This document shows positions 3,712 to 59,601 of a stretch of 64,000 nucleotides of DNA, piece after piece. A program made the translations under genes and the position numbers. The stretch is from Paraphaeosphaeria minitans (Eukaryota; Ascomycota; Dothideomycetes; Pleosporales; Didymosphaeriaceae): assembly GCA_015832175.1 (NCBI GenBank), contig WJXW01000006.1, forward strand, positions 2,480,001 to 2,544,000, in the 5' to 3' direction. The notes beneath the pieces were generated by a model. It had not been told where the DNA came from, did no database searches, and was given only the letters and a program-made list of their open reading frames with translations. The first letter of the stretch is position 1, and each line of letters starts with the position of its first letter.

Positions 3712-5892
3712 CTACAGTGTCGGCGGGCCAGCTTCGTCACGCACTGCTCTGCCAGCCGGGCCCTGGAAACCTTGCGTCGTGGTACTGACATCGTGCATTT
3801 CCAGCCCGCCACCTTGCTGCTCAGCCGTCAGAGGCGCTGCCCGCTTGTTCCTGCGCGGGCCAAACCTCTGATCGCCTTCCTCATACTTGCGCTTGAAGTG
3901 CAGATAAGTCGGCGGTTTCGGTCGCTGCAGGACCGCAATCAGATTTTTGATGACGCTGCCCTGTGTAAAGGGCCGGTGTCGGTCTTTCTTGATGAATTTG
4001 TGCGAGTTCAAGTACTCGCGTGTCGTCTCTCCTCTGCCCATGAGGAAAACGTGATATATGCCCAAACTCAAAGGATAAGGAGTGGCGAGAATTGCGTAGA
4101 TGCACATTGCAAACGGGCCACGCCATTTAGCAATTGCGGCTCCAAATGAAGCGCCGTTCTGAGAGCGCCACGCCAGGATGTGGACCAAGCTTGCTGCTAG
4201 CAGGTAGACTCCCAGGATAGTTGCCGACGTGACAAAAGTGAAGAAGTAGCGGTAATTTCGTCGGCCAATGCAGTTGTTCAGCCAGACGCAGTGATGATCT
4301 TGTGTCTCCACGCAATTGTCGCAGACCCGGCAATGGTGGGCACGCGGCGGCCTCCAAATTTTGCAGCTTTTGCAATATTTGGTAGGCACTTCCATAGCTG
4401 CGTTGGCGCCAGAGGTCGATACGACCATGGTCCACTCCGTTGTAGGAGGGCCAACGCTGAGCGGGTCATCATTAGGATTAGGCGGCGGAAATGGATGCAG
4501 ATTGCGGGGAAGTATCTGTGGCGGTTAGTGTCGCGAGACCAAAGGCGTGTAACTGACTTACCCCAGGATCTGACGCAGTAGCATGTATGAAGGAAGAAAT
4601 GCAGACCGTGAACAAATAAGCAAAGATGATGGGTATCGAAGGGGAAACATGAAGCCACAGCCACGGTGCACTGCAAGCATGTCAGTATTGTCGCTTATGC
4701 ACAAGTAGGACTTCACGTACGAAAAGCCCAGAAAGAGCGCTGAAGGGATGACAATCAAAGTTCCGGTCGCAATATTCACGGGCCGGTCGCGAGTGTTTTG
4801 TAGACGCCCTCCCCAGCAGAAAGCGGTGTTGCCGGAGAAGTACTGATAGTTCTTGCCCAGCTCTTTCTTCACAATCTCTTTGGTGGGTTCTTTCCGCGAC
4901 ATTCTGGGAGACGATTCGGCGGAAGCGAGTTTCTCGTGGCCCGTCTGGGGTCGCATCTGCGATCGACCTTCGCGGCTTCCAGAAAGCCCGAAGTTGGCGC
5001 TGAATGAACGTGGTGACCGGCCGGGGGTAGGTAGCTTGCCAGATTCGCCCTTGTGAGACTCGGACAGATGGAGATGCTGAGGCCTGGGGCGATGCAACGG
5101 AGTGATGCTCTCGCCGCGGCTCCGGACGGTTTCTGCGCCGGTAGGGGTCGTGTTCGCAGTGGTACGGTCCGGAAGGTCGCGGTCGGTCATGTCGGTGCCC
5201 CGAGAGGGTGGAGGTTGCTGGTCTGGATCGTGGGAGTGGGAGAGTCCGAGGCCGAGGCCGAGGCCGAGGGGCTGTTGTTGCTGGGTGCCTCTTGTCTGGT
5301 TGGAGCCAATGCTCTGGCGGTAAGGGTTTCCTCCAATCTCACTCGTGCCTTCCGAGTAGAGCGAGCTGTGCCCGAGCAGCGACGTGGGACGCTGGTTGCG
5401 CTGTTGCTGCAGGCGCTGCGAGCTCATCGGACGGAAGAAGCCATGGGCGGCGAGCGGAACGTGGGTTCGGCTTGCCGCTGTCGTCGGCCGGCTCTGTGTC
5501 CCCATGCTCCCGGCCACACTCGCCGTCCCTACGCTGGGCAGCACGCCTCCTCTACCCCGCTGCGACGGCGGTTCGCGGGACCATCTTCGGTTGCTTCCGG
5601 ACTGAGATATGGCAATGGACGAGGGGCGCGAGGGCGGCAGTCCGGCGTCTCCGGAGGGGCCCGTCATGCCCAAGACGCGGCTGCCGGTGGAGTTGCGGTT
5701 CTGCGACATGGGAGAAGGTGCGGCGAAGGTCGTGAGCTCGTCGTCGGGTTTCGCGGGCGCGCCGACGGCTTGGTCGTTTGGTGCGATCATGGTGGGAATC
5801 GAAGATGCCTGTACAGCAGATGGCTGCCCACTTGTCGCCATGGCGGGAGTCGAGGATGCATATGCAGCAGATGGCTGCCCACTTGTCGTCAT
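3712..5892 (-). CDS. erf2: DHHC palmitoyltransferase, Erf2 type
   Basis: Exons 5892-4721, 4670-4562 and 4515-3712 give 694 aa. The long N-terminal half is low-complexity (Ser/Pro/Gln/Arg). It is followed by NYQYFSGNTAFCWGGRLQNT, two membrane spans (the second crosses the first intron), the DPG motif, the cysteine-rich domain with HHCRVCDNC and catalytic TQDHHCVWLNNC, two more spans and the TTxE motif in GRGETTREYL. This is the domain order of Erf2, the catalytic half of the Erf2-Erf4 enzyme that palmitoylates Ras-type proteins at the ER. The start ATG at 5892 lies in a good CGCCATGAC context; a second in-frame ATG 48 nt downstream sits in a duplicated copy of the same sequence, so the precise start is uncertain. 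Confidence 0.92.
5840..5892 (-). repeat. Duplicated 48-nt N-terminal unit of ERF2
   Basis: The first ~16 codons (M-T-T-S-G-Q-P-S-A...) are repeated directly with few changes, including the start methionine and its context. This yields two tandem candidate initiation codons. Confidence 0.7.
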
Positions 5893-7533: not shown

Positions 7534-8352
7534 TTACCAACACGCCACCAGCGCTCCCACAGCCACTGCAAGACCCACTTCACTTCCATACCTCGCCGCC
7601 CCGCCCGTAAACAGCGGCTCCTCGGGCCCCGTCGTACTCGCTGGCGGCGCAGGCAGCGTGTTCCCACTCGGCGCCGGCTCTGGGGCGGGCGTAGGCGTCG
7701 GCGTTTCCCCGCCGTCCTGGACCGTGTTGCTCGACTGCACGGCCTCGGACGATGTCCCCGGCAGCTCAAATGTGGACTTCGAGTCCACCGGCGTTGGGGA
7801 AGGCGGTGGGTTTGTGCCCTGCGTGGGTGCGAAGTGCGTCGTCGTCCCGTTCCACCCGCCGTTTGCGCCGCTGGGAGTGTACCCGGTGCCTGTGCCGGGC
7901 CAGGGGATTGTGACGGTTGTGGTGGTCTTGGAGCAGTTGCGGGTGGGCGAGACGCTGGGCGTGGAGATTGAGGCGTAGATCGTCGATGTTATGGTTGTGT
8001 TGTGGCAGGTGTGGCTTGCACTCGGTGTGGCGGTGGACCACGGGATTGTGACGTTCGCGGTGCTGTTTGTGCAGGTTGGCGAGGAGGAGGGGGCGTAGGG
8101 TGTGGGTGTCGTTATTGGGGGGAGTGTGGGTGTGGAGTCTGGTGAGGAGATTCCGGGGCCGTAGCCGTAGCCGCCGTCTGGTGTTGCTGCTGCTGCTGGT
8201 TCCAGCGAGGGCGAGGGCGAGGTGTCGCTCTGGTACCCGTAGCCCTCCCCGTACGCCTTGAAGACGACATCCTCCGCGCGTGGCGTCGCTCCTGTGGCAC
8301 GCGCGGAGAGGAGGAGAAGCCCCAGTGAGAAAAGGACGGTTCGCGATGCCAT
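7534..8352 (-). CDS. Ser/Thr/Pro-rich GPI-anchored cell-surface protein
   Basis: A single-exon 272-aa protein. It begins with a clear signal peptide (MASRTVLFSLGLLLLSARATG) and ends with a small-residue site and hydrophobic tail (SEVGLAVAVGALVACW), as expected for a GPI anchor. The body is rich in Ser, Thr, Pro and Gly with several N-glycosylation sequons (NST, NVT, NTT, NGT), a GYGYQ/GYGYG motif pair, and paired Thr-rich blocks with conserved Cys (C-T-N-S-T, C-H-N-T-T, C-S-K-T-T). This composition is typical of wall mannoproteins. No enzymatic domain is visible. Confidence 0.8.
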   Translation of the reverse strand: MASRTVLFSLGLLLLSARATGATPRAEDVVFKAYGEGYGYQSDTSPSPSLEPAAAATPDGGYGYGPGISSPDSTPTLPPITTPTPYAPSSSPTCTNSTANVTIPWSTATPSASHTCHNTTITSTIYASISTPSVSPTRNCSKTTTTVTIPWPGTGTGYTPSGANGGWNGTTTHFAPTQGTNPPPSPTPVDSKSTFELPGTSSEAVQSSNTVQDGGETPTPTPAPEPAPSGNTLPAPPASTTGPEEPLFTGGAARYGSEVGLAVAVGALVACW

Positions 8353-10968: not shown

Positions 10969-11121
10969 CTACTGGACGATGCAGTTGGCGCCCGGAGTGG
11001 GCATCTGCTTCTGAACGGTGCAGTTGGCGCCTGGAGTCGGCATTTGCTTCTGGACGGTGCAGTTGGCGCCCGGAGTCGCCATGGTGCGCATGACGGTGCA
11101 GTTTGCTCCTGGAGTAGCCAT
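10969..11121 (-). CDS. Candidate hybrid/a-type pheromone precursor: four CaaX-ending repeats
   Basis: An intronless 50-aa ORF starting at ATG 11121 in the context ATCAAAAATGGCT. It consists of four units of the form M-[A/P]-T-P-G-A-N-C-[T/I]-V-[M/Q], separated by the dipeptides RT, KQ and KQ. Each unit ends in a CaaX-like tetrapeptide (CTVM, CTVQ, CTVQ, CIVQ); the last is at the true C terminus. Between units 1 and 2 the TPGANC codons differ only synonymously (CCA/CCG, GGA/GGC, GCA/GCC), which indicates selection on the peptide. There is no signal peptide and no KR Kex2 site. Repeated C-[T/S]-V-M motifs are known from the h-type pheromone precursors of Hypocrea/Trichoderma, and a single C-terminal CaaX from ascomycete a-factors. 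The assignment is inference; a RiPP-like repeat precursor is an alternative. Confidence 0.6.
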   Translation of the reverse strand: MATPGANCTVMRTMATPGANCTVQKQMPTPGANCTVQKQMPTPGANCIVQ

Positions 11122-12020
11122 TTTTGATTTTTGGAGGTTTCTCGTGAAAAGATTGTTAGAACGTGAGTGGGTGAGTGAGTGAGTGGATAGTCTGGTGGGT
11201 TGAGGTCTCAGATGGGGGGCATCTTGGGGGTATTTATGCGTTGCGTGATGCGGTGGGGGAGTGACAACTTGTGAGAGAGGCAAATCGGGCTTTGAGCGGA
11301 GGCCTAGATTATGGTTCGAGACAAGGGAGGTAGAAGGGAGATTGGGGATTGGGTGGGTATGTGATTGTTGTGGTGGTGGTGTGGCGGGTTGGATGGTCTT
11401 GGTATTGTTCGGCTTAGTATTGTTGTGACCACCAAGACCATGTCACGCGGATTTGACCACACTGCTGGGTAAAAATATTGGAAAATGACTGAAGAATCTT
11501 GGTTGTTATTGGACCATAGATGCTTGTGCTGTAGCGTGGCTACGACAGCAGTCTCGAGAACTTTCCGTTGGAGGTTTTCTGGGTCCCCGCTGCCCATGTG
11601 GCCCTGTCAGAGATCGACCGGTCCGTTCTAGGAGGCTTCTACAAGGCCGTGGCGCTGGGACAATTGGCACGACTGTCAGGTACCTGTTCAAGCAGATATA
11701 CGGGTGGCTTGGATCCGTCCGCGGAGTCCAGGCTCCAGTCCTTCTCGTATCATCACAATCACAAGCTTTCTCCAACCAATACTGAAGCCATTGTCGCGTA
11801 GCCTGATTCGGATGGTGATAGTGAAGACTACGTGCATGCAGCTCGGCTCGAGGCCGAAAGGGCAGACAAGGCCTTCATGTTCGGACGTGCCGAGTTCAAT
11901 GGGCGGACAACCACTTAACGAGGTCGAGACCGGTGTGGGATAACGTGGCTACCGCAACAATACACTAGTGTACGCATCCAACACGTGTACCCTCATACTT
12001 CTTTCCCGTGGCAGAATCTC
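11122..12020. other. Intergenic with coding-like fragments
   Basis: The left part is the leader of the repeat-peptide gene. On the plus strand, about 11568-11690 and 11803-11919 read as protein-like stretches (for example ...SEIDRSVLGGFYKAVALG and, after a TAG acceptor-like site, PDSDGDSEDYVHAARLEAER), but no ATG-initiated frame joins them. They could be a decayed gene or an unresolved multi-exon gene. Confidence 0.25.
11231..11238 (-). promoter_or_regulatory. TATA-like box of the repeat-peptide gene
   Basis: CATAAATA on the minus strand lies about 110 nt before the ATG. It is followed by a CACT-repeat pyrimidine-rich leader and an A-rich segment directly before the start codon, a layout typical of strongly expressed fungal genes. 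Confidence 0.45.
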
Positions 12021-14539
12021 TCAACTGGTATTCGTGCTTGAGGGTGGAGGGGGGGCGGGACTGAAGGCGCTAGGGCCATAAATGCTCAGTGGATCGCGTA
12101 AGTCTGTGAACCCTTCGAGCCCTTGCGCTATCATGCTGTCCACATTCGACGTCGCTCCCATCCAGCTCTCCATTGTTGTGTTGTTCGAGTTGACCCAATT
12201 GGTAGGCGGTAGCATGTGAACCTGGCCCATCATAGTAGAATCCCACAGATTCTAGGACGTCGTTAGTAAGAGCCGGGCGTGGGCATAGATGGCGCTTACC
12301 CAATCAATCTCAGACGCGATGTCAGGCATGTCAAAGGTCATGTTGTCAGCAGATGGCCAGTTGCTCCAGATCTGTGGCGGCAACTCTTCTGGCAGAGACT
12401 CTGGTGTCACCTCTTTGGGGAGATGTGAAGTATCTGTCTCGTGTTAGCCTACGAACTTGGCCCTCATTGTAAGTAGACATACTATTCTCAAAGCCGCTCG
12501 GGACAGCGTCCTGCAGTGAAACGTCGGACTGTCCCGGTGAGGAGCATTTTTTTAACATGGCTTTCAGAATGGCGGCACCTCTAACAGAATCTCTGAAACG
12601 GTTGGGATGGTTGGCCCAAATATCGTGGGTAATTTGCAGGAGCGAAACCATGTCCGAGATCTTGTCCGAGGAAGAATCGCCGGTAGACTGGAGGTGGTTG
12701 AGTTCGAGGCAAATAACCATTGCTGCCAGCAAGAAGTCAAATGTTTGAAGCGAAGACATGTACCACCAAACCTTGTTGAGTTGTCCACCAGGCTGGCAAG
12801 CATGGAAAATTGTGATGTGGTATCGTAGGATCTCTAACGCGGAGTCTACACATATCTTGCGCGATCCCGCGTATCTTGGATCAGTCTGGCCCGCCGTAAG
12901 GAAGGTGCGATGCAAGACAAGTTTCGTCTTCAAGTACAGCAACTCGATGTTGTACCGGCCCATGATAAGCACTGGCGCATCGGTGACACACTTTTGTAGG
13001 GGACGGACACGCATTCCTTCGGGAACCTGGTCGTGGACTTCCTCGAGGCGCTTCTCGAGAGACACAACGATGGCATACCGTGGCGGCGTAATCCGTTGTG
13101 CCAGCTCTGCAGCCTCCGCAAATACGGCACATATTTTTGCTTTCGCGATGGTATACGTAGCAGGCGTCGACTCGGACGAGGGTCTTGCCTTGGGCATCGT
13201 CGTCATACCAGGCGAGAGATCTGCATCGTACAGATTCTGCGGTGCTCTCGTATCACTCTCTATGCGTCGAACGACGGCCGGCAGACCAATGGCGAAGGAG
13301 ACCAGCGTGTCGAACATGTTGAGAACGTGCCACACCCGGCGGCGCATCTCTCCTTGGAAAGGTGACATGGCTTTGAAGTTGCTGGGATCACGGTGGTATC
13401 CCATTCTCATCGCAACGCGCATCGATACCCCGTTCATCAGCCATATCTTTGAGTGATGATCATCCCTCCGCAGAAGCTCACACTCGCTGTAGATCATCAA
13501 GGTTTCAAGTGTGTAGGGCTGACTCTTCGTAACGTCTGCCAAGACGATAGCGGACGATGCTAGTTGCTGGAAACGATTGACTGCGCTGTTTAGGTAGTCG
13601 TTGGTACCCTTCGAATCCGTACAGTCATGTGTGGACCCTGGTGGGTTATGGTACGCAGCGACTTGTGCGTTCATGCCAGGGTTTCGAGGCCCGAGTATTA
13701 TACCCAAAGCCATTGCAGAATACAGAAGAGCGATCCACATGACGGAGGTCGACGAAGCGTCAAGCCAGAACTGATTGTACTCTTCTTGGAAAGTGGGGGC
13801 GTGGATGATGAATAGGTGAGGATCGGCGCTATGCAATCATAAGCACGAAGGTTTTTCAGGCCAATCTACAAATTTCGTACCTATTGAACCATAGGGGAAG
13901 AAGCCGGTCGCACTCTTCCTTGGAAGGCATCGCCTGTATTAGCTGTGTTTTGGTGATACTTCTCGGCATGCCAAAAGTCACTGTAGATTGAGCGGCGTCG
14001 TCGTCCCAGTCCTCTTCTTGATCCTCATCCTCGTCGTCCTCTATGCCGTCCTTCACTTCTCCAATTTCTTTCAGCAAGGCCGACCAGTGGCCGGCTCCTA
14101 CGTACGTCTCATTGCCCTGGCTGCTGATCCTCATCTGGCCAAAGGTCTCCGGACTGAGCTCCTCGGTCCCTTTGATAGCAGCAGTTTCGGTGCTCGGAGC
14201 AGCAGGAGTTCCCGCGCCATCCTCTTGCTGTTTCTGATTGATCAAGTTGACGACCAGGCTCTCGAGGTTCCGGATGCGACCCCGCATGTTCTGGGCCTGC
14301 TTGTTTCGCGGCGGAGCAGGAACATATTGGCATGCTTCATGCCTCGAACGCTTCGCACACTGATCGCAAACGGGATGCTCACGGTTGCACTTTAGTTTCC
14401 CCTGGCGGCACGGCGTGCAACTGAGTTGAGGTCGAGCTCTTTTGATGGGCGCTCGGACTAGCAACTCGGCGGCAACAGGTGTTGTCGTAGCGGTAGTAGG
14501 AGCCAAGTTGCCAGTGCACGAAGCACTTGGCCCGGACAT
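12021..14539 (-). CDS. Zn2Cys6 fungal-specific transcription factor
   Basis: Exons 14539-13881, 13828-12483, 12433-12300 and 12251-12021 give 789 aa; all junctions keep frame. A Zn2Cys6 binuclear cluster spans about 41-70 (C-x2-C-x6-C-x6-C-x2-C-x8-C, beginning CTPCRQGKLKC) preceded by basic residues. A short coiled linker follows (GRIRNLESLVVNLINQK), then an acidic patch (DDEDEDQEEDWDDD). The central region from about residue 220 (SADPHLFIIHAPTFQEEYNQFW) through 600 has the helical features of the fungal transcription factor middle-homology region, including the RRVWHVLNMFDTLVSFAIGLP block. The Ser/Asn/Pro-rich C terminus may activate transcription. Its targets cannot be told from sequence; it is transcribed away from the neighbouring HAD gene. 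Confidence 0.9.
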
Positions 14540-16328: not shown

Positions 16329-16448
16329 CAGTGTTGACCTTCGAATATAGAATATACCTGCACAGCAACACATCAGCCCGAAAATGAAACAATTCCGATC
16401 TTCGAATATACGATACGTATACACGCCGGCACATTTGTCCCCTCCACT

Positions 16449-16613
16449 CCAATCCAATCCAATCCAATCCAATCCAATCCAATCCAATCCAATCCAATCC
16501 AATCCAATCCAATCCAATCCAATCCAATCCAATCCAATCCAATCCAATCCAATCCAATCCAATCCAATCCAATCCAATCCAATCCAATCCAATCCAATCC
16601 AATCCAATCCAAT
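16449..16613 (+). repeat. (CCAAT)33 pentanucleotide array
   Basis: A perfect head-to-tail run of about 33 CCAAT units. CCAAT is the core of the site bound by the fungal HAP/CBF complex. Open frames through it only reflect the repeat. Confidence 0.95.
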
Positions 16614-16844
16614 CCAACACGATGAATGGATTGTGCGCCTCACGAAAACGTGCCCGGGTGGAGTGGCGATCATATAGGATGGGTGGGTGGAAATGAGGAT
16701 ATTGCACGTGTAGTATAGTATAGTATAGTATAGTACAGTCCGCGATGCTGGCGGAGTGGATTCGGGGTGAAGATATCAAGGTTAGATAGGTATAGAACGC
16801 ATCACGACGACGACAGAGAAGCACTAAGAGGGAATGTGCATGGG

Positions 16845-17027
<183 letters not shown>

Positions 17028-17297
17028 GGAAAGGTGTACATGTAGGTAAGCATCCAATGCCATCTTTCCCTACAAGGCAGAAGGGGAAGAAAACGGACGG
17101 GTAAAGTAGATGGAAATTGCGGGAATGTGGAGTGGGCTGGGTGTATGACAGGGCTGTGGAGTAAAGGGTATCTATCTCTCTCTCTTGATCTACTCTCTCT
17201 CTTGATCTACTCTCTCTCTCTATCTCTCTCTCTTGATCTACTCTCTCTCTATCTCTCTCTCTCTCTCTCTCTCACATCACATCCACTTCCCACCCCC

Positions 17298-18482: not shown

Positions 18483-18909
18483 GGCCAGAACAGTGAATGG
18501 TAGGCAGCGAATGGGGATTGAGCTGTACTTGGTAAGAATGCTATGTGGGGAAGGGAACGAGGGGAGCACACTATATTTATATGTAGGTATGCACAGAGTC
18601 TCACACGGTGTCTCGAGCTAGACAAGGAACACAAAGGCTGGACGTGACGCGGATGATGGAGTGAAGGCAGGCGAAGACGCAAAGCTGGGGTGTGAAGAGG
18701 AAAGGGAAGGTTCCGAGCGCGTGGGCGTTATGAAGACGGGTTCTAGGGACAGGTTCCGCGAATTATACGAGGAAGGATCAATACCAAGGAGGCCGGGGAC
18801 GGGTTAAAGTGCCCTTCACAACAAAGGTAATTGAAGGGTGTGCTTGGGCGCATTGACAGGGCCGTGTGAAGGGCTGGCGGCTCAGCAAGAATCCGTCAGC
18901 ACAGGTAGC

Positions 18910-19000
18910 GTAGGTAGGTAGGTAGGTAGGTAGGTAGGTAGGTAGGTAGGTAGGTAGGTAGGTAGGTAGGTAGGTAGGTAGGTAGGTAGGTAGGTAGGTA
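18910..19000. repeat. (GTAG)n tetranucleotide array
   Basis: About 22 perfect TAGG/GTAG units, the longest regular run of the TAGGTA motif that is scattered elsewhere in the window. Confidence 0.95.
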
Positions 19001-19879
19001 GCGAGGTAGCGAGGTAGCGTACGTGGCTTTAGCGTACACAGCCTGGGCTTGGCGCGTACAGGCGCTGCGAGGACCCCCCAGACATGCCCGCGGCGATGGA
19101 GTTTCCACAGTGGGTGCGAAATGAGGAGAACTGGAGCAGCTGGGATGGCACAGGGACGGCGGGTGGGTTCCTGGGCCTGCATCTAGGTATCTGCAGGGCG
19201 GACCTCTCTTCGGCCCGGTGAAACGGGCGCCGCGAACCAATGTGGAGAGGAAGGCAGGCGGAGAATTCACCGGCTCGTGACCGCCCGCCCACCGCCACGA
19301 CGCTGCCGGGTTTCGCACTCGTCGCTGATAGGTTGATAGAGAATAATAACATGTTATTGAAAGAAAAAGTATTTCGCTCTTAGTTGGTTTTAATATCACA
19401 AAGACAGTCGTGGAAGCTGGGACTCGGTTGGTGAAGGTTGCGAGTCCATCGAGGCACGACTAGGTGGTGAGTAGGTACCGTGATCTGTCATCGCATGCTC
19501 CCTCGGCAGCTCACAACACCAAGCCCCGTGCCCCGTCAGCGGCGCTTCACTGCTTTCGCCCTCATGGCGCAACATGCATCCTCATTGACGGAAGGGAACG
19601 TGCGGAGCCGCGGTTGCGCTGCCTAGCTTCCGGCGACGGCCTCGGTGGCTTCCCTCTTCCCAGCCGACCGACCTAGCCCACGAGCTGCGAAAAGACATGT
19701 TCCGCGCGACAAGGACGAGGAGCAACACTTGTTCCCTCGCTGCGAAGTCGACCGGCTTGACTCGGTTGGCGACAGACGGCCTATAGGTGCGGCATCTCTT
19801 GGGGAGGTATGGTGGGTGCTCTTACTGTGGGCCTGGGTAGTGCTCTTACTATCTACCTATGGCTACGGCAACTCTGTTT

Positions 19880-20828: not shown

Positions 20829-20969
20829 AAAGAAGAAGAAGAAGAAGAAGAAGAAGAAGAAGAAGAAGAAGAAGAAGAAGAAGAAGAAGAAGAAGAAGAA
20901 GAAGAAGAAGAAGAAGAAGAAGAAGAAGAAGAAGAAGAAGATCATGATGATGATGATGATGATGATGAT
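20829..20969. repeat. (GAA)n then (GAT)n array
   Basis: About 37 perfect GAA units, then ATC and about eight GAT units. The purine run is strand-pure for over 100 nt. Confidence 0.95.
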
Positions 20970-38207: not shown

Positions 38208-41200
38208 ATGGCCACACCCGCAGCCTCGAATCGCGTCAACGAACCGGATAAGCAGGATGTGCTGGATGCAGAGGAGCAGCAATTCGTGGCCAACATGGGC
38301 TGGAAGGCTCTGTTCAGCTTCACGACCCGTAAACATTTGCCAGTCCTCGCATTCGCCGTACTTGCCTCCTCTCTTGCCGCTCTTACGCTTCCCGCGCTCG
38401 CCGTACTCTACGGTCTGTTGTTTCGAGAGTTCGGGTCTGTTGCCAAGGGTGACAAGTCAGACTCGCAGTTTCTGAAGCAGGTTTCGACGTATTGTATCTA
38501 TGTCACAGCCATAGGTGGCGTCAGTTGGTTGGGCAACAGTCTGCACTTCGCTGCATTCATGACCTTCGGCGAAATGCAGGCACGCAGCGCACGAGGGAGG
38601 TTATTCGGTGCGTTGCTCAACAAGGACATGGCTTGGTACGACACGAGGGATACGGGCATGGCGGCGTTTCTGCCAGCCATGCAAACGTGAGAACAGACAC
38701 AGCTTCGCAACATGCTATGATGCACTTGCTAACCCGTGGTAGACAAATCCACGACCTCCAGATTGCAGTTTCCCAACCCTTCGGACTCGCCGTTCAATGC
38801 GTCGTTCAAACCATCGGCGCTCTCGCTGTCGCCTTTTATTCCTCGTGGAGCCTTACACTCGTCATCATCGCCTCTGTTCCGATCATGTACCTCGTAACGG
38901 CCTATCTGTCCAAGTTGTTAGATCAACGCGCGCACGAACAGAGCCACGTGTTGAGGCAAGCACTGAAGTATCTCACCAACACCATACGCAGCATCGAGAC
39001 CGTCAAGTGCTTCAACGGAGAACGATACGAGTCTCAAAGATATGGGAGGGTGGTGACTTCGGCCGGAAAACTGTATAACAAACAAGCCAACTTTCGGGCT
39101 CTGCAGCTGGGTGCGATGCAGTTCTTCACGCTGAGTGTCTTCTTTCAGGGATTCTGGTATGGTGCACACCAGATATTCGAAGGGAGGATCAACGTCGGCC
39201 AGGTCATCACAACATTTTGGGCAGCTATGATGGCTGTTCAGGGCGTGACTGGATTTCTTCCCCAGTTCATTGTGCTGCAGAAAGGCAAAGTCGCCGGTGC
39301 AAGACTTCGGATGCTGATAGCACAGATCTCCGAAGACGGTTCTCTCGTTGAGACAACTGGGCAACAGATACCACCGACATGCGAGGGGAGAATCGAGTTC
39401 AATAATGTACGTGATGCTGGAGCTGTAAAAATTCAATGCTAATGGTTCAGGTATCGTTTTGCTATCCTTCGCGGGCAGATCAAGCTGCCTTACGCAATGT
39501 CTCCGTCTCGTTCCCCGCGGGTGAGACCAGCTTCGTTATAGGGCGGAGCGGATCAGGCAAGAGCACGTTGGGCCAGCTGCTCATTCGGTTTTATCAGCCC
39601 GCCTCTGGCCAGATTCGACTCGACGGCAACTCGATCCAAGAACTCAACGTACATTGGCTTCGTAGTCAGATCACCCTCGTGGAACAACACAGCGTCTTAT
39701 TCGATGGTTCAATCCGCGACAACATCGCTATGGGTAAAGGAGGCGAGCAAGCGAACAGTTCGGATATCCTGAACGTTGTGTCATTCGCCATGCTTGAGCA
39801 GATGGTACATGATCTTCCGGAAGGGCTCGACACCGAACTGGGGACACAGGGAAACAGTCTCAGCGGTGGACAGCGACAAAGAATGGCACTTGCGCGCGCA
39901 CGTCTGCGCGATTCCTGTGTCCTAGTCCTCGATGAGTCCACAAGCGCGCTTGACTACATCACAAGGTCTATCGTACTACGGGCCATACGTTCTTGGAGGC
40001 GAGGCAAAACGACTATCATCATTACACACGATATTACGCAGATTCTTCCGCAAGATATGGTGTATGTCATGGACAAGGCACAAGTGGTACCACAAGGCAC
40101 GAGGGACCAGATGGCGGCAATACCATACTCTCCATTTCACACCTTCTTGGTTGAAAAGGACTGGAAAGACGAATCAGAAGAAGAAGACTCCGAGGATGAT
40201 ACCGACATGATCGTTGGATTGTACAGGAACTCGTGGAGCGGGTCAAAAACACCCAGCCACCTACCGAGCCGCGTGACCAGTCGCCCTAACTCTACTATAA
40301 TCAGACGTTCCGGGATGTTCTCACCATTTTCGAGTCCGGATGTTGAGGCTGCGTTCTCTCGAAGTTACAGAGCTTCTGGTGACTTCACGGGAGAAAGAGT
40401 GACCAACTTCTCCGGGAAGCTCCGACCGCGTCCTATGACAACGATCGGCACCGTAAGAGACCGGTCACCCCTCGTGGCTGTAACGCAACCACAGTCAACA
40501 GTCTATTGCCACTCTACAGAGATAGACCTGTCGAAGCCGTCCTCAGCTGCAAGACCTGTATCAGTCGCTCCGCCCACGACGTTACTAAGACCAACAAGCA
40601 AAGATGAATATCCATCTTTTCGCAGAACGTTCCGCGAGAAGATGGAGATTCGGAAGCAACGTCGCAGTCTCATGCGTGAAGAGAAGTCTACCGAAACCAC
40701 TGAGCAGTTAAGCATTACCGGCGTGCTACGTACGGTATGGCCTCTGGTCGATTGGCCTACGCGACTTGCTTTACTTGCAGGGCTCTTTTGCTCTCTGATC
40801 CATTCAGCCGCTACTCCCGTCTTCGGATACGTACTCTCCCAGCTGTTCTCAACATTCTACACTCTGGGCAACCAGCGAGAATTGGCTCGGACTTATGCTC
40901 TCTCGATATTGGGAATCGCAGCAGCAGACGGTCTCGCCAACTACGGTTTCAACGTGCTGTTCGAGATCTCGGCACAGAGATGGGCTACTACGCTCAGAAC
41001 AGAGAGCATGAAACGCATACTTCTCCAACCACGAGAGTTCTTCGACTGGGAGGAGAACAGCGTGCCGCGACTAGCAGAGTGCTTGGATCAGTTCGCAGAA
41101 GAGGCTCGGAATCTGCCGGGACGTTTTTTCTGCATCTTGATCGTCATGGTATTCACGGTTGTTATCGCGCTGGTCTGGGCTCTGGTCATTTGCTGGAAGC

Positions 41201-42594
41201 TCGTGCTCGTGTCCATGGGATGTCTCGCCGTCATGTTCTGCATTACCCGAGTGTTCCACGCGATCAGCAGTCGCTGGGAGAATCTTAGCAACAGCGCCAG
41301 CGAGCGAGTAGGCCAAGTCCTGCATGAGACTTTTGTCAACATCAGGACCGTGCGATGTCTTGTCCTCGAGGACGTTTTTCGAAAGAGGTATGCCGAAGCG
41401 ACCAGTAGCGCTCTCTCGATCGGAACCAAGCGCGCGATATACACCGGTTCGATATACGGTCTCAACTACGCCAGCGCGGCTTTCATCACTGCAACGTTGA
41501 TGTGGTGGGGAGCCTGGCTCGTGTCCAAAGGACAATACACATCTACCGACATCATCACAACCTTCAACGTCCTCATGCTGAGTGTCGCCCACGCCAACCA
41601 CGTCGGCGACTACATTCCTCAAATCAACGTCTCCAAGGACGCCGCCTCACGCCTGATGCGTCTTGCACGTCTCCCTCAGGACTCCCACGAGCTCAGCGGC
41701 ACCTCGCAGCTCTTCACCGCGGGCGACGTCGAATTCGACAAAGTCAACTTCACCTACCCGACCCGACCAACCCACCAAGTGCTCAACGGCGTCAGCTTCA
41801 AGATCCCAAAGGGACGCTGCACCGCCATCGTCGGCGCCTCGGGCTCCGGGAAATCCACCGTCGCCGCCCTCCTCCTGAAACTCTACCGCACAAACCCACA
41901 CGCAGGGGCGAACGCAAACGCGACATCGCACCCGCACATCTCAATCGCCAACCACGACATCGCCACCCTGCACACCCCAACCCTCCGCTCCAGCATCGCC
42001 ATCGTCCCCCAAACCCCCGTCCTCTTCCCCGCCACCGTCAGAGAAAACATCATCTACGGCCTCGACCTGTCCAGCGCCCACACCACCGAGACCAGTATCC
42101 GCGCCGCCGCCCGCGCCGCCGGCTGCGCCGACTTCATCGACACGCTCCCGCAGGGCCTCTCGACCATCATAGGCGACGGCACCGGCGGCAGCGGAGGCGG
42201 AAGCACCACCCTCTCAGGCGGCCAAGCCCAACGCCTCGCCCTCGCCCGCGCCCTCGTGCGCGCCCCCGACGTCCTCGTCCTCGACGAGGCGACCTCGGCT
42301 CTGGACGTCGAGGCTGCCCGCGTCGTGCGGGATACGGTGGAGCGGCTCGTGCGTGGGGATGCGTCGGAGGTGCGGCGGCGCGGGATGACGGTGGTTGTCA
42401 TCACGCATGCGCGGGAGATGATGGCGGTTGCGGAGCATGTGGTGGTGCTGGAGCGGGGGCGGGTCGTTGAGGAGGGCGGGTTTGAGGAGTTGCGGCGGAG
42501 AAGGATGGGGGCTTTTGCGCGGTTGGTGAGGGGGGAGGGAGGGGAGGCTGGGGAGGGGAGGGACGGGGGGGTTGCAGAGGGGGGGTTTGTGTAG
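38208..42594 (+). CDS. ste6: Full-size ABCB transporter of Ste6/AtrD (a-pheromone exporter) type
   Basis: Exons 38208-38686, 38743-39406 and 39451-42594 give 1428 aa in the order TMD1-NBD1-linker-TMD2-NBD2. TMD1 covers about 45-330. NBD1 has Walker A GRSGSGKST (~411), signature LSGGQRQR (~517), Walker B VLVLDEST, and the H-loop in ITHD. A long charged linker (~620-790, DESEEEDSEDD... and RPRPMTTIG) precedes TMD2 (~811-1105). NBD2 has GASGSGKST (~1174), LSGGQAQR (~1301), VLVLDEATSALD and H-loop ITHA, so both ATP sites look complete. The linker and N terminus resemble fungal Ste6/AtrD a-factor exporters rather than drug pumps; that placement is a judgement from memory and needs a tree. A multidrug ABCB pump is the alternative. 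Confidence 0.8.
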
Positions 42595-48074: not shown

Positions 48075-50632
48075 GTTCACGGGAGGTCAACCTTGAGGAG
48101 GTTGTCCTGCGGTTGCGGGTGTATGTGGGTGGAAGGGGTTGCGAAGGTGCAGGAGGGCTGCAGTGGTTGGGTGGGCAAGGTGATCAGCCTGCGCGGGTAT
48201 TCCGGTCAGTGGAGGTAGTTTGCCAACGAGGCGGTGAGTAAGCGGAGAGGCAGCGGGACACAGCCGAGGGGAGGCTTGTGCGAAGAGAGCAGAGCCGGGT
48301 GAGTGGGGCGGACAGTGATAAATAGGTGGTGAGGATGTTGCGGAGGGCCCGAGGCCGATCGCAGCGACGACTGACTTACAGGGCGTGAATGGCAGATGAG
48401 CCCAACGGGGTAGGTAGCGGCACGGGCCTGTGTGCGAGGGCGGCGGGCACGGGAAAGGGTTTGCTGCGAGGGCACTGGCGCGATGGAGCGGCTGCACGCG
48501 AACGACGAGCAGAGGGGCCCAGGGAACACACTCGGGGCGAGTGTCTGTGGTGTGGAGAGATGGAGGGACGAGGGGAGCGTCTGGGAGAGGCTTCGTATTG
48601 CCTCCCGCAGGCCTTGGAAGTGGAAGTCACGTGCACGGCCCTAGCGTGGGCCGAAAGAAGCACTTTCACAGTGGAGTTACGGCGACGCTGCCAATCACGC
48701 CCTCCTCGCATCGTGGACCAGCCCAACTCATGCTTCCGCTGCGGGCTCCCAAATGCCTCAAGACGTTTCAGACGGGGTCCCGCTCCAGCACAGGTCACAG
48801 GCCGACGCTGAGGAACATGTCTCGACTCTCCACTGTCCAGCCGACCCCTTTATGCGCGTCACTCGCCCACTGTAAAAGGAACCCACTGTAAAAGGAACCC
48901 GCCGTCTCTCATCCTGTCTGACCTTTAGTGCACAAACGGGTGCAACTCTTGCTTGCAAATGGCACCGGAAGCCACTCGCTCAAGTTGCCGTTGCAGCCGC
49001 TGATGCCATGCCCGACGCTTGGGGGGGATCGCCCTTGATCCGATCGTGACGATAATGTAGGTAGAGTGTGCCCGCAAAAGCACCGCTGTGATGGACCTTG
49101 GCATCATAATGCGACATGTACTGTGTACGCCCAAGTTTTGGTCGGATTCTAATTCTAGCATCTTTGTCCCGGATGCCCTCTTCGGCAGCCATCCTTGCCG
49201 CGGTGCAGCCCAACATGGTCTGGCATTCTCTTACACACCTGGGCACCTGCATGCATCCCCACACGTGCCGCCATGTTTGCCGGAAGTTGTTCACAGGACG
49301 TGCCCAACGCTCCGCAGGAACACAAGTGCCCGCCCTGCTGCCGCCATGTGGAGCTTTTTTGGAGGCCCCGATCGATCGAGCTATCCTGCGGCCCGCTACA
49401 CGCGGCTGCGTAAATAGCACCACATAGTCAGGGTGCCTTTAGGTACATGCAATGTAGAGCCTTCAAGTACATGCAATGTAGAGCCTTCAAGTACATGCAA
49501 TGTAGAGCCTTCAAGTACATGCAATGTAGAGCCTTCAAGTACATGCAATGTAGAGCCTTCAAGTACATGCAATGTAGAGCCTTCAAGTACATGCAATGTA
49601 GAGCCTTCAAGTACATGCATTACATAGTCTTTAAGTCCATGCATTACATAGCCTTCAAGTACAAGCAACTGTAGAGCCTTCAAGTACATGCATTACAGAG
49701 CCTTCGAGTACATGCATACCGTAACAGATTCAAGTACATACATTTGTAAAGCCTCCAAGTACATGCAATAGTAGAGTGACATGCCCATGTTTGCAACCAA
49801 TACCGTACATCCTCGCGACGCAGACCTCCTAGATAATCCTCACTCTGCAGGCCATGCCATCTGCAGACCATGCCAAACCCCAGTGCACCATCCATCGGTC
49901 CTGCAAAAGACACCCAACACGTCTTCACACGCGCATTGGTGGATACTCACGTCGATGTGCATCATGTTCGGCGGCACGAAAAGTGGCTCGACACGTGTAG
50001 GTAGCCCTGCAAAGGACGGGTCCACGTCGGGGATAATAGGGCAGTGATATACCTACCTATACAGCGGGGAAATGGAGTTTCCATTCGTTGTTATAGCAAT
50101 CACGACTCGTATTGACCTACCTACTTAGCTCATACCTACGGTCCGAACCGTGAGACAGGTGCTAGCTGGTGCTGGTTGTGAGCGCTAGACGACAGGTGTT
50201 TCCGGCTGCGCTTGTTCCGGTAGGTACGAGCGGTTGCCTACACTGCATCGTACATTGTAGCATTGCGTTGACGTGCAAGTATCAAGATCGTGCTGGCTGA
50301 CTTGCAACCAAACAACTTGTGAACGCTAATGAGCTTCCACACGCTCATCGAAGACCTCGGCCTGGCTTTTCTGACCTGCCCAAGCTCAAGCATAGCGCCG
50401 TGCTGTCGTCTTCCTCATACGACAGCTAGGCACAACGCCGTGCTGTCTTCTTCACATCACAGCTAGGCACTCGTGCGAGGTCCTCTGTATCAACGTAGTT
50501 AGCTTCCATCATCGTCCCAGTCGTGGCCATAACCAAGGGTATCATAAAACAAACGCCTAGCCTAAGCCCAAACACACACACTCTCTCTCTCTCTCGTCGG
50601 CCGTTAGTCTCCAATACACTACTCCCCTCTCC
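48075..50632. other. Long intergenic region with a 24-bp repeat
   Basis: The first ~750 bp, directly upstream of HRR25, is GC-rich and probably its promoter and leader. The middle holds a 24-bp tandem repeat; the remainder contains TACCTA motifs. No gene is supported. Confidence 0.6.
49441..49765. repeat. 24-bp minisatellite
   Basis: The unit AGCCTTCAAGTACATGCAAT plus GTAG repeats about seven times almost perfectly, followed by five or six degenerate copies. The unit is a multiple of three, so long open frames here are artefacts. Confidence 0.92.
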
Positions 50633-57823: not shown

Positions 57824-59601
57824 CTACGGAGACGTCTGCGTCGCCGTGGGCTCACTACGCCGGGACGCGTACGCTGCTCCTGCTCTCGCCGTTTGCGTAG
57901 CCGTCGACGACCCTCGCCAATACGCTTGCCCGGCTTCTGCGGTGGTGGTCGTGGGCGTTGGGTCCAGACACCTGCCAAACCAGCCTGGAGTGGTGCACGT
58001 CGTCGTGGTAGTTGCTTCGCTAGTAGTCGTGTCGCTGGTGGTTTTGTCCTTGCAGCCGAACCAACCAGGCTAGCATGCTAAGTATAAATCATGAACGCAT
58101 TTCGGGGTGGTGGACTTACTGTTTCACAAGTACTGGTTGAGGTAGACGTGGTAGTAGTTGTTGGCGATGTTGTGGCAGTCGTGGTGGTGGTTGTGGTGGC
58201 ATCGCGGCACCCCCACCATCCCGGGGTCTTGCACGTCTCGGTGCGTGTCACGGATGTGGAAGTGGTTGTTATTGAAGAAGTCGTAGTAGTCGTGTGCTGC
58301 TTCGTGCCGTTCTCGAACTTCCAAAGATAGCAGTCAACACAATTGACGTCCTCGTCCACGCAGGGAGCGGCCTCGTCGTACTTGGCGTACACCTCGTCTA
58401 TCGAGTACCGCAGTCTGTGGTATTGGGTGCTCTGCCGCCAGCCCCAGTCCTTCACAACATCATATGCACATCGCTTGCCTGTGTGGCACACCGTCTCGAA
58501 CGCGTAGCCAGCGATAGAACAGAAGCTGGATCCACCATTGCAAGTTCCCATGTAGATTGGATCGGCAGTATGTCCAAAATGGAAGCCTGCAGTGTTGGCT
58601 CGGAGTGGTGAGTCTTGGCCCCGAACTGCCAGGCCGAGCCGAGCCGCAGCCAAAGCTTGTGGGTATGTTTCGAAGGTGATTGATGGCAGGCCATGTCGTA
58701 GGCCGATGAATGATGCTAGGGCGCCTCCCAGGCTGTGACCGGTCGTGATGATGTTTGCTTTTGGATAGAGCTGAATGACTTCATCGAAAAGCTCGAGAGT
58801 CGCTTCGAAGTAACGATTAGGCTTTAGCATTTCGTCTTTTATGCATTGCTCGTCACAGGTGTATGTTGAGGTCATACAATCGCAAACCTTGCGCCAAAGG
58901 TACGGACCCTGCTGACCACAACAGCACGAACCGAACAAGTTGTCATTATCTTTGTCACGCCCCGACGTGCCGTTGCCTTCAAACATGGCTACAGTGGTCC
59001 CCTTGACGGACAAGACGACCGTTGAGTTGGTGTCATCGCTGAAGACGTGGCCTCGGATCCCACTGTCCTCCCAACCGAAAGGAATCGAGCCTGCAAAATT
59101 CTTGCCCACATCGAGCCATTCCGGATCATCGCGATTTGGTTTGTATGCGTCCTCAGACATGTTGGCAAAATTTAGGATTGTTTGCTTGTCTTTGACGTCC
59201 GGTCCCATGACATACTCTGGGTGCCAAATGGGCGACATCGGTTGTTGCTGTGAGGCATAATTCTGTAGAGGCGACTTGTCGATCCTTACCGAAGACGTAC
59301 GAATGGGAAACGGTCCAAAATGAGCGGCCGAGTCAGCTTCGATGGCAACTCTTTCCGTGGAAATGTCCAGTCGTCGTGCTCTTGGCCCTGGCTGTCCAGC
59401 CCCATGGTGGAAAATGTGACGGAGCTTCACTCCGTCCGAGGCTATGCTCGCCGTCTTCAAAACATGTTGTGTTGATGTAGGTGGCGACCTAGTGCCCACG
59501 TAGTAGCCGGCGGACAGTAACCCGACCAAGAAGAGGGTTTGGCTGACGAAGGTGATTGTAATGACTATTCGAGAGGAGTTCCAATACGCGCGTTGCGGCA
59601 T
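57824..59601 (-). CDS. ATG15: Atg15 vacuolar phospholipase (autophagic body lipase)
   Basis: Exons 59601-58120 and 58069-57824 give 575 aa. An N-terminal signal anchor ([24 protein letters not shown]) is followed by a lumenal class-3 lipase domain with the motif [11 protein letters not shown] (catalytic Ser290), after [14 protein letters not shown] and [16 protein letters not shown] typical of Atg15. N-glycosylation sequons are present. The Thr-rich tail contains three copies of a Cys-Pro-Gly-Trp motif ([28 protein letters not shown]); the 50-nt intron falls between the first and second. Known role: membrane-anchored lipase delivered through the multivesicular body route to lyse autophagic bodies in the vacuole. 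Without the intron the protein would stop after ...NAFMIYT. Confidence 0.93.

Follow-up and report, generated by a model that had tools for sequence, protein, structure and literature searches.

The question raised by this locus is whether a short, repetitive reading frame in a Dothideomycete genome encodes an a-factor. According to the available part of the paper that described a Leotiomycetes candidate in 2023, no a-factor gene was known before it in filamentous ascomycetes outside the Sordariomycetes (PMC10569646). In the open-licence literature we found no report of an a-factor from the Eurotiomycetes and, among the matches listed, none from the Dothideomycetes. Aureobasidium is a Dothideomycete. 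Its genome paper, in the portion available, describes a blastp search aimed at pheromone precursors and the identification of Ste2 and Ste3; no a-factor gene is reported there (PMC4227064). Here we describe a candidate gene from a 64,000-nucleotide stretch of genomic DNA, which we call the window. Judged from its sequence, the probable product of this gene is a multi-copy, multi-CaaX (‘h-type’) precursor of an a-factor-like lipopeptide pheromone. The gene, its four units and its upstream region are laid out as follows.

10969..11121, minus strand: four-repeat multi-CaaX candidate a-factor precursor (from translation, a search of its own genome and repeat statistics)
11089..11121, minus strand: unit 1, MATPGANCTVM, followed by spacer RT at 11083-11088
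11050..11082, minus strand: unit 2, MATPGANCTVQ, followed by spacer KQ at 11044-11049
11011..11043, minus strand: unit 3, MPTPGANCTVQ, followed by spacer KQ at 11005-11010
10972..11004, minus strand: unit 4, MPTPGANCIVQ, with the C-terminal CaaX and a TAG stop directly after it at 10969-10971
11122..11621, minus strand: upstream region, with a TATA-like CATAAATA at -117 and four AACAAT hexamers (from a sequence scan)

The reading frame consists of 50 codons and a TAG and runs from 11121 to 10969 on the minus strand, which the preliminary description of the locus had left unstated. In translation the peptide reads MATPGANCTVMRT-MATPGANCTVQKQ-MPTPGANCTVQKQ-MPTPGANCIVQ-stop. That description had proposed a 50-residue frame made of four 11-residue units. 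The frame and its four units are there, while 11 residues is only the conserved part of a repeat that recurs every 13 residues (39 bp) and whose other two residues form a spacer. The fourth unit has no spacer, and the stop codon abuts its CaaX. In order, the units end in CTVM, CTVQ, CTVQ and, at the stop, CIVQ; these CaaX-like endings had been read in the same way before and are borne out by the translation. The general pattern of a unit is MxTPGANC-[TI]V-[MQ], and a single basic residue stands right after each internal CaaX (CTVM-R, CTVQ-K and CTVQ-K).

The frame stays open for 107 codons upstream of the ATG and contains no further in-frame ATG there, so the candidate's ATG is the first in frame. 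The start context, AAAAATGGC, has an A at -3 and a G at +4, and the TATA-like box lies 117 bp 5′ of the ATG; both had been claimed for this locus and both are present in the upstream sequence. A protein search of the 47.45 Mb host genome found the candidate ORF as its sole match, even at E<=10. In the window the candidate is flanked by Zn2Cys6 regulator ORFs at 12346-14539 on one side and by an ORF at 7534-8352 on the other.

Compared with published pheromone precursors, the candidate is short enough for an a-factor, for which a CaaX protein of fewer than 100 residues is expected: it has 50, with CIVQ at the stop. A hydrophobic N-terminus is required of a-factors in the available part of one account (PMC13037118), and that of the candidate is no more than mildly hydrophobic, with a mean Kyte-Doolittle (KD) value of +0.65 over the first 11 residues and +0.07 over the first 20. 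An N-terminus rich in serine and threonine and a GY motif near the CaaX are described, in the accessible text of another account, as common, though not universal, in a-factors (PMC10569646). With no serine and eight threonines in its 50 residues the candidate does not have such an N-terminus, and it contains no GY motif; both points are counted against the a-factor reading. Its repeat architecture is that of an h-type precursor as defined in the part of PMC3068285 at hand, with four copies of a differing motif. The literal h-type consensus (L/I)GC(T/S)VM is absent from the candidate, which has ANC(T/I)V(M/Q) instead. Kex2 dibasic sites are also absent from it, the spacers holding a single K or R only, and this too is counted against the reading; in the extract available, Kex2 sites are not found in every h-type member (PMC3068285).

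A convenient example for further comparison is HPP1 of Trichoderma, which, as far as its published description is available, is needed for male fertility of a MAT1-2 strain (PMC3068285). Like HPP1 of Trichoderma reesei and its Fusarium relatives, the candidate is a short precursor with repeated C-T/S-V-x motifs, the last of which is the terminal CaaX, and the first ‘a’ residue is polar in most copies. The two differ in their details: in the part of the source available, HPP1 has three copies of (L/I)GC(T/S)VM and two Kex2 sites, whereas the candidate has four copies of NC(T/I)V(M/Q) and monobasic spacers. The candidate also belongs to another fungal class, and none of the 26 other window ORFs scanned has a Sec23 or 14-3-3 domain, as the neighbours of hpp1 do, so synteny with hpp1 or with Sordariomycete a-factors was rejected. 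Fruiting was not abolished when the Kex2 sites of HPP1 were removed, and internal processing may therefore not matter in the candidate either; in the available text, the authors left open whether the internal CaaX motifs are processed (PMC3068285).

The preliminary description had placed the precedent for h-type precursors in the Hypocreales only. The Trichoderma and Fusarium cases are indeed known, but published examples extend to the Ceratocystidaceae, a Sordariomycete family. In the portions of the two accounts available, the a-factors of Huntiella contain as many as five repeats, each of which ends in CpaX and, in the genes that are best conserved, is 12 residues in length (PMC10182648), and other Ceratocystidaceae have multi-peptide genes with a motif after every peptide (PMC13037118). 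The candidate resembles these in its near-identical units that end in CpaX or CaaX, 13 residues long where theirs have 12, and in having no signal peptide. Unlike the candidate, the Huntiella repeats start with R, almost always have P before the motif and are spread over up to seven genes, according to the same partial accounts. It had further been suggested that no equivalent with GANC-T-V-Q repeats has been described. This holds, as far as we have searched, for the sequence, for the use of monobasic spacers in this setting and for the fungal class, while the architecture of repeated CaaX motifs is already known from the literature.

In the rhodotorucine A precursor the spacers read TVAK and each internal CaaX is followed by a basic residue, as in the candidate. 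This precursor, from the basidiomycete yeast Rhodosporidium toruloides, carries tandem pheromones between CaaX-like spacers in the available part of PMC3068285. The tandem units of the candidate are likewise split by CaaX-like spacers, a likeness drawn from that description; the rhodotorucine A precursor differs in being basidiomycete and in its peptide.

The Leotiomycetes candidate is another short CaaX protein from outside the Sordariomycetes, and it mostly ends in CTVM. In the available text it has one terminal CaaX, a serine- and threonine-rich N-terminus and often a GY, whereas ours has four motifs, no serine and no GY. Its expression was not mating-type-dependent in three species, and its authors, in the same text, doubt a role in mating (PMC10569646), so a gene for a CaaX peptide does not have to encode a mating pheromone. 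This precedent lends some support to the alternative that survives best, that ours is a real lipidated peptide gene with a non-mating role, encoding a farnesylated signal or membrane peptide of vegetative growth or development. We regard this as unlikely, since a precursor with many copies fits a signal that is released, and since the similarly built HPP1 serves male fertility in the published account (PMC3068285).

Could the frame instead be no gene at all, and simply a minisatellite of which one frame is open by accident and ends in a CaaX-like motif? Tandem repeats are common in the window (61 TRF rows), and in such DNA chance alone can produce a repetitive ORF, a point that is counted against the a-factor reading. 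For example, a 24-bp minisatellite of 14 copies at 49435-49776 encodes repeat ORFs of MYLKALHC and MQCRAFKY, one per strand, and serves as a control showing that minisatellites in the window can yield repeat ORFs. The window also holds long simple-sequence arrays, namely (TCCAA)35 at 16443-16617, (TGATGA)30 at 16847-17028, (AGGT)28 at 18903-19017 and (AAG)37 at 20830-20941. The homologue searches agree with the minisatellite explanation and are counted against a pheromone. In a database of 5.8 billion proteins, which includes fungal proteins, eight candidates shared words with the 50-residue ORF and none matched at E<=10; in viral contigs four pattern stretches were found and none was confirmed. 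Searches of the literature with the repeat strings gave matches via ‘ganciv’ alone, none of them fungal by title (one concerns a patient with Pneumocystis pneumonia).

The pattern of differences between the copies argues the other way. Every difference within the TPGANC core is synonymous. Across the 11 shared codons the pooled pS is 0.383 and the pooled pN 0.086, a pN/pS of 0.22. Counted as minimum changes per column, with the columns read by eye, synonymous ones make up 6 of 10, the expectation being 24% (binomial P 0.015). The other four base changes lead to three replacements, A/P, T/I and M/Q, which retain an X-A or X-P dipeptide and the CaaX motif, and the CaaX variants that they leave are expected to be acceptable to farnesyltransferase. 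The earlier statement that the core codons differ mainly synonymously, the peptide rather than the DNA being conserved, is therefore upheld, and the ratio near one between repeats that had been named as speaking against a gene is not what we see.

Mismatches between neighbouring repeats fall on the three codon positions as 4, 4 and 12, that is, 12 of 20 at the third (one-sided P 0.013). In five comparison arrays the mismatches by phase are 11/12/14, 6/2/2, 26/27/29, 47/46/46 and 20/16/14, near even in four and uneven in one small array (6/2/2, n=10), by an ungapped alignment that is rough for indels or for a period not divisible by 3 (one period is 34). Because the small array is also uneven and the ungapped comparison is rough, we treat the codon-phase statistic as supportive, not overwhelming. 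An end of the form C-x-[VILMAT]-[MQSAC] occurs in just 1 of the 467 ATG ORFs of 25-150 residues in the window, and that one is the candidate. With a looser CaaX motif four ORFs of 12-70 residues are found in the window, the other three being without such units. Set beside the complete frame, the start context and the TATA-like box, these observations make a minisatellite without a gene quite unlikely.

The weakest alternative, a secreted ribosomal natural product precursor with repeated cores (a dikaritin-like RiPP), has in its favour the repeated cores and the short spacers with basic residues, but is very unlikely given that the stop sits exactly after a CaaX, that Kyte-Doolittle hydropathy windows, the sole measure used, reveal no signal-peptide-like stretch (maximum 15-residue mean 0.38, windows starting at residues 1-16) and that the 26 other window ORFs scanned, a set of larger, uninterrupted frames, contain no DUF3328, which we take to be the UstYa-type domain.

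We return to the a-factor reading and to the genome in which the candidate is found. The preliminary description had named the Dothideomycetes among the classes to be searched, and this was right: the ORF at 58078-59601 in the window matches Atg15 lipases, and its top match is from Paraphaeosphaeria sporulosa (Didymosphaeriaceae, Pleosporales), at 93% identity over 97%, with Lentithecium fluviatile (Pleosporales) the next named match at 73%, among the best 120 of 1437 proteins passing (7995 candidates scored). On these protein matches, which are the basis for the taxonomy, the host is a Pleosporales fungus near Paraphaeosphaeria. The sole 5.8S rRNA match reported for the genome, at C12:25201-25354, belongs to an AT-rich, heavily mutated rDNA copy, as expected after repeat-induced point mutation.

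Both pheromone receptor genes are present. STE3 lies at C8:1711884-1712791, in two pieces above the cut-off and without stops, and its first exon matches 84 proteins, the species-named one being from Bimuria novae-zelandiae (Didymosphaeriaceae; 68% over 77%); STE2 lies at C2:734773-735653. There are nine HMG-box matches in the genome, of which a pair at C6:1394267-1394545 falls within one gene, the TAA that ends the first piece being taken as the start of an intron. The box of this gene reads RPMNCWMLFRD... and its tail KKKRQSRK, which we take to be typical of a Dothideomycete MAT1-2-1. Its neighbours are a gene with an endonuclease/exonuclease domain, APC5 and CIA30, presumably the usual MAT flanks. 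The gene is about 1.1 Mb from the candidate on the same contig. A MAT-alpha model had no match in the host genome, a result that does not in itself prove absence. Given the HMG-type MAT-like gene with these flanks and no MAT-alpha match, the isolate looks MAT1-2 and the locus heterothallic. In published systems, as far as the available text of one account goes, MAT1-2 is the type that produces a-factor (PMC10182648).

Searches for other pheromone genes gave little. The a-factor pattern GYCxVM-stop, one strict pattern, has 0 sites in the 47.45 Mb genome; another single-unit a-factor may lie elsewhere in it, GYCxVM being the pattern covered. Several Sordariomycete a-factors map near a cyanate lyase gene, according to sources available in part. 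The 29.7 kb around that gene here contain no pheromone-like CaaX ORF, and a single short ORF with a CaaX-like end, CIAH. The strict alpha-pheromone pattern WCxxxGQxCW also has 0 sites in the genome, and a relaxed version has five isolated ones, all of them in frames of only 5-69 codons that contain no repeats. STE2 is present, yet neither pattern led to an alpha-pheromone gene; the alpha-pheromone may be divergent in sequence.

The window also contains, some 27 kb away from the candidate, an ABCB-type ABC transporter at 38492-42594 on the plus strand (ORFs 38492-39442 and 39436-42594). This transporter was considered as a Ste6 and set aside: it scores higher against a P-glycoprotein (450 bits) than against 7qkr, a solved a-factor exporter (376 bits), and orthology is not claimed. 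A DHHC palmitoyltransferase domain (PF01529) at 3712-4428 on the minus strand, about 6.5 kb from the candidate, is probably coincidental.

Upstream of the candidate, AACAAT occurs four times on the coding strand between -303 and -31, and it is faintly possible that these hexamers are HMG-protein sites. Four per 500 bp is reached by 0 of 306 other 500-bp windows and by 1 of 2000 shuffles. AACAAT is one among eight motifs inspected there, and upstream of the candidate another five hexamers stand out just as strongly (against 238 windows), so the cluster is given low weight. Within 1 kb upstream, STE2 has three copies and STE3 none; 4 of 137 1-kb windows reach three, including those of the candidate and STE2.

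On balance the a-factor reading is favoured by the motif geometry, the low pN/pS, the single match in the genome, the presence of STE3 and STE2, the HMG locus and the empty GYCxVM search, and also by the published equivalents, HPP1 and the a-factors of Huntiella. The h-type or a-type precursor first proposed for this locus thus keeps its architecture and gains the two receptors and an HMG-type MAT-like locus, while it lacks the (L/I)GC(T/S)VM consensus, Kex2 sites and a homologue in the protein database and viral contigs searched. We infer a-factor function from these features, and consider the peptide a strong candidate for an a-type mating pheromone.

How might such a precursor be processed? 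Farnesylation, removal of aaX and methylation are the established steps of the CaaX pathway. The precursor would be a cytosolic protein; the usual CaaX enzymes would farnesylate its terminal CIVQ, trim it back to the cysteine and methylate that residue. One basic residue stands directly after each internal CTVM or CTVQ, and each internal CaaX could thereby be exposed as a farnesylation site: a protease would cut after the single K or R of each spacer, and a carboxypeptidase would strip the basic residue, leaving CTVM or CTVQ as a new C-terminal CaaX. One precursor could in this way give up to four lipidated peptides, the nonapeptides TMATPGANC and QMPTPGANC (twice) and an N-terminal [M]ATPGANC, all with a farnesylated and methylated cysteine at the C-terminus. 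A dipeptidyl aminopeptidase could further trim the N-terminal Mx-TP dipeptides (X-A/X-P, then X-P). The lipidated peptides would leave the cell through a Ste6/ABCB-type ABC transporter and would act on the STE3 of MAT1-1 partners. Were there no internal cleavage, the pheromone would be the C-terminal unit alone. The chances seem to us evenly balanced that the whole of this more specific proposal is correct, namely that the missing a-factor of the Dothideomycetes is a precursor of four copies, that its single basic residues make the internal CaaX motifs usable, and that several lipidated pheromones arise from it through successive rounds of cleavage, trimming and prenylation.

Thanks to the design of its spacers, the candidate could also serve to examine whether CaaX motifs inside a precursor are processed. 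The Dothideomycetes include many plant pathogens, and with a concrete candidate sequence the question of their a-factor becomes testable. If the reading is true, a multi-CaaX design would be shared by Sordariomycetes, Dothideomycetes and basidiomycete yeasts, and would represent an ancient or repeatedly evolved route.
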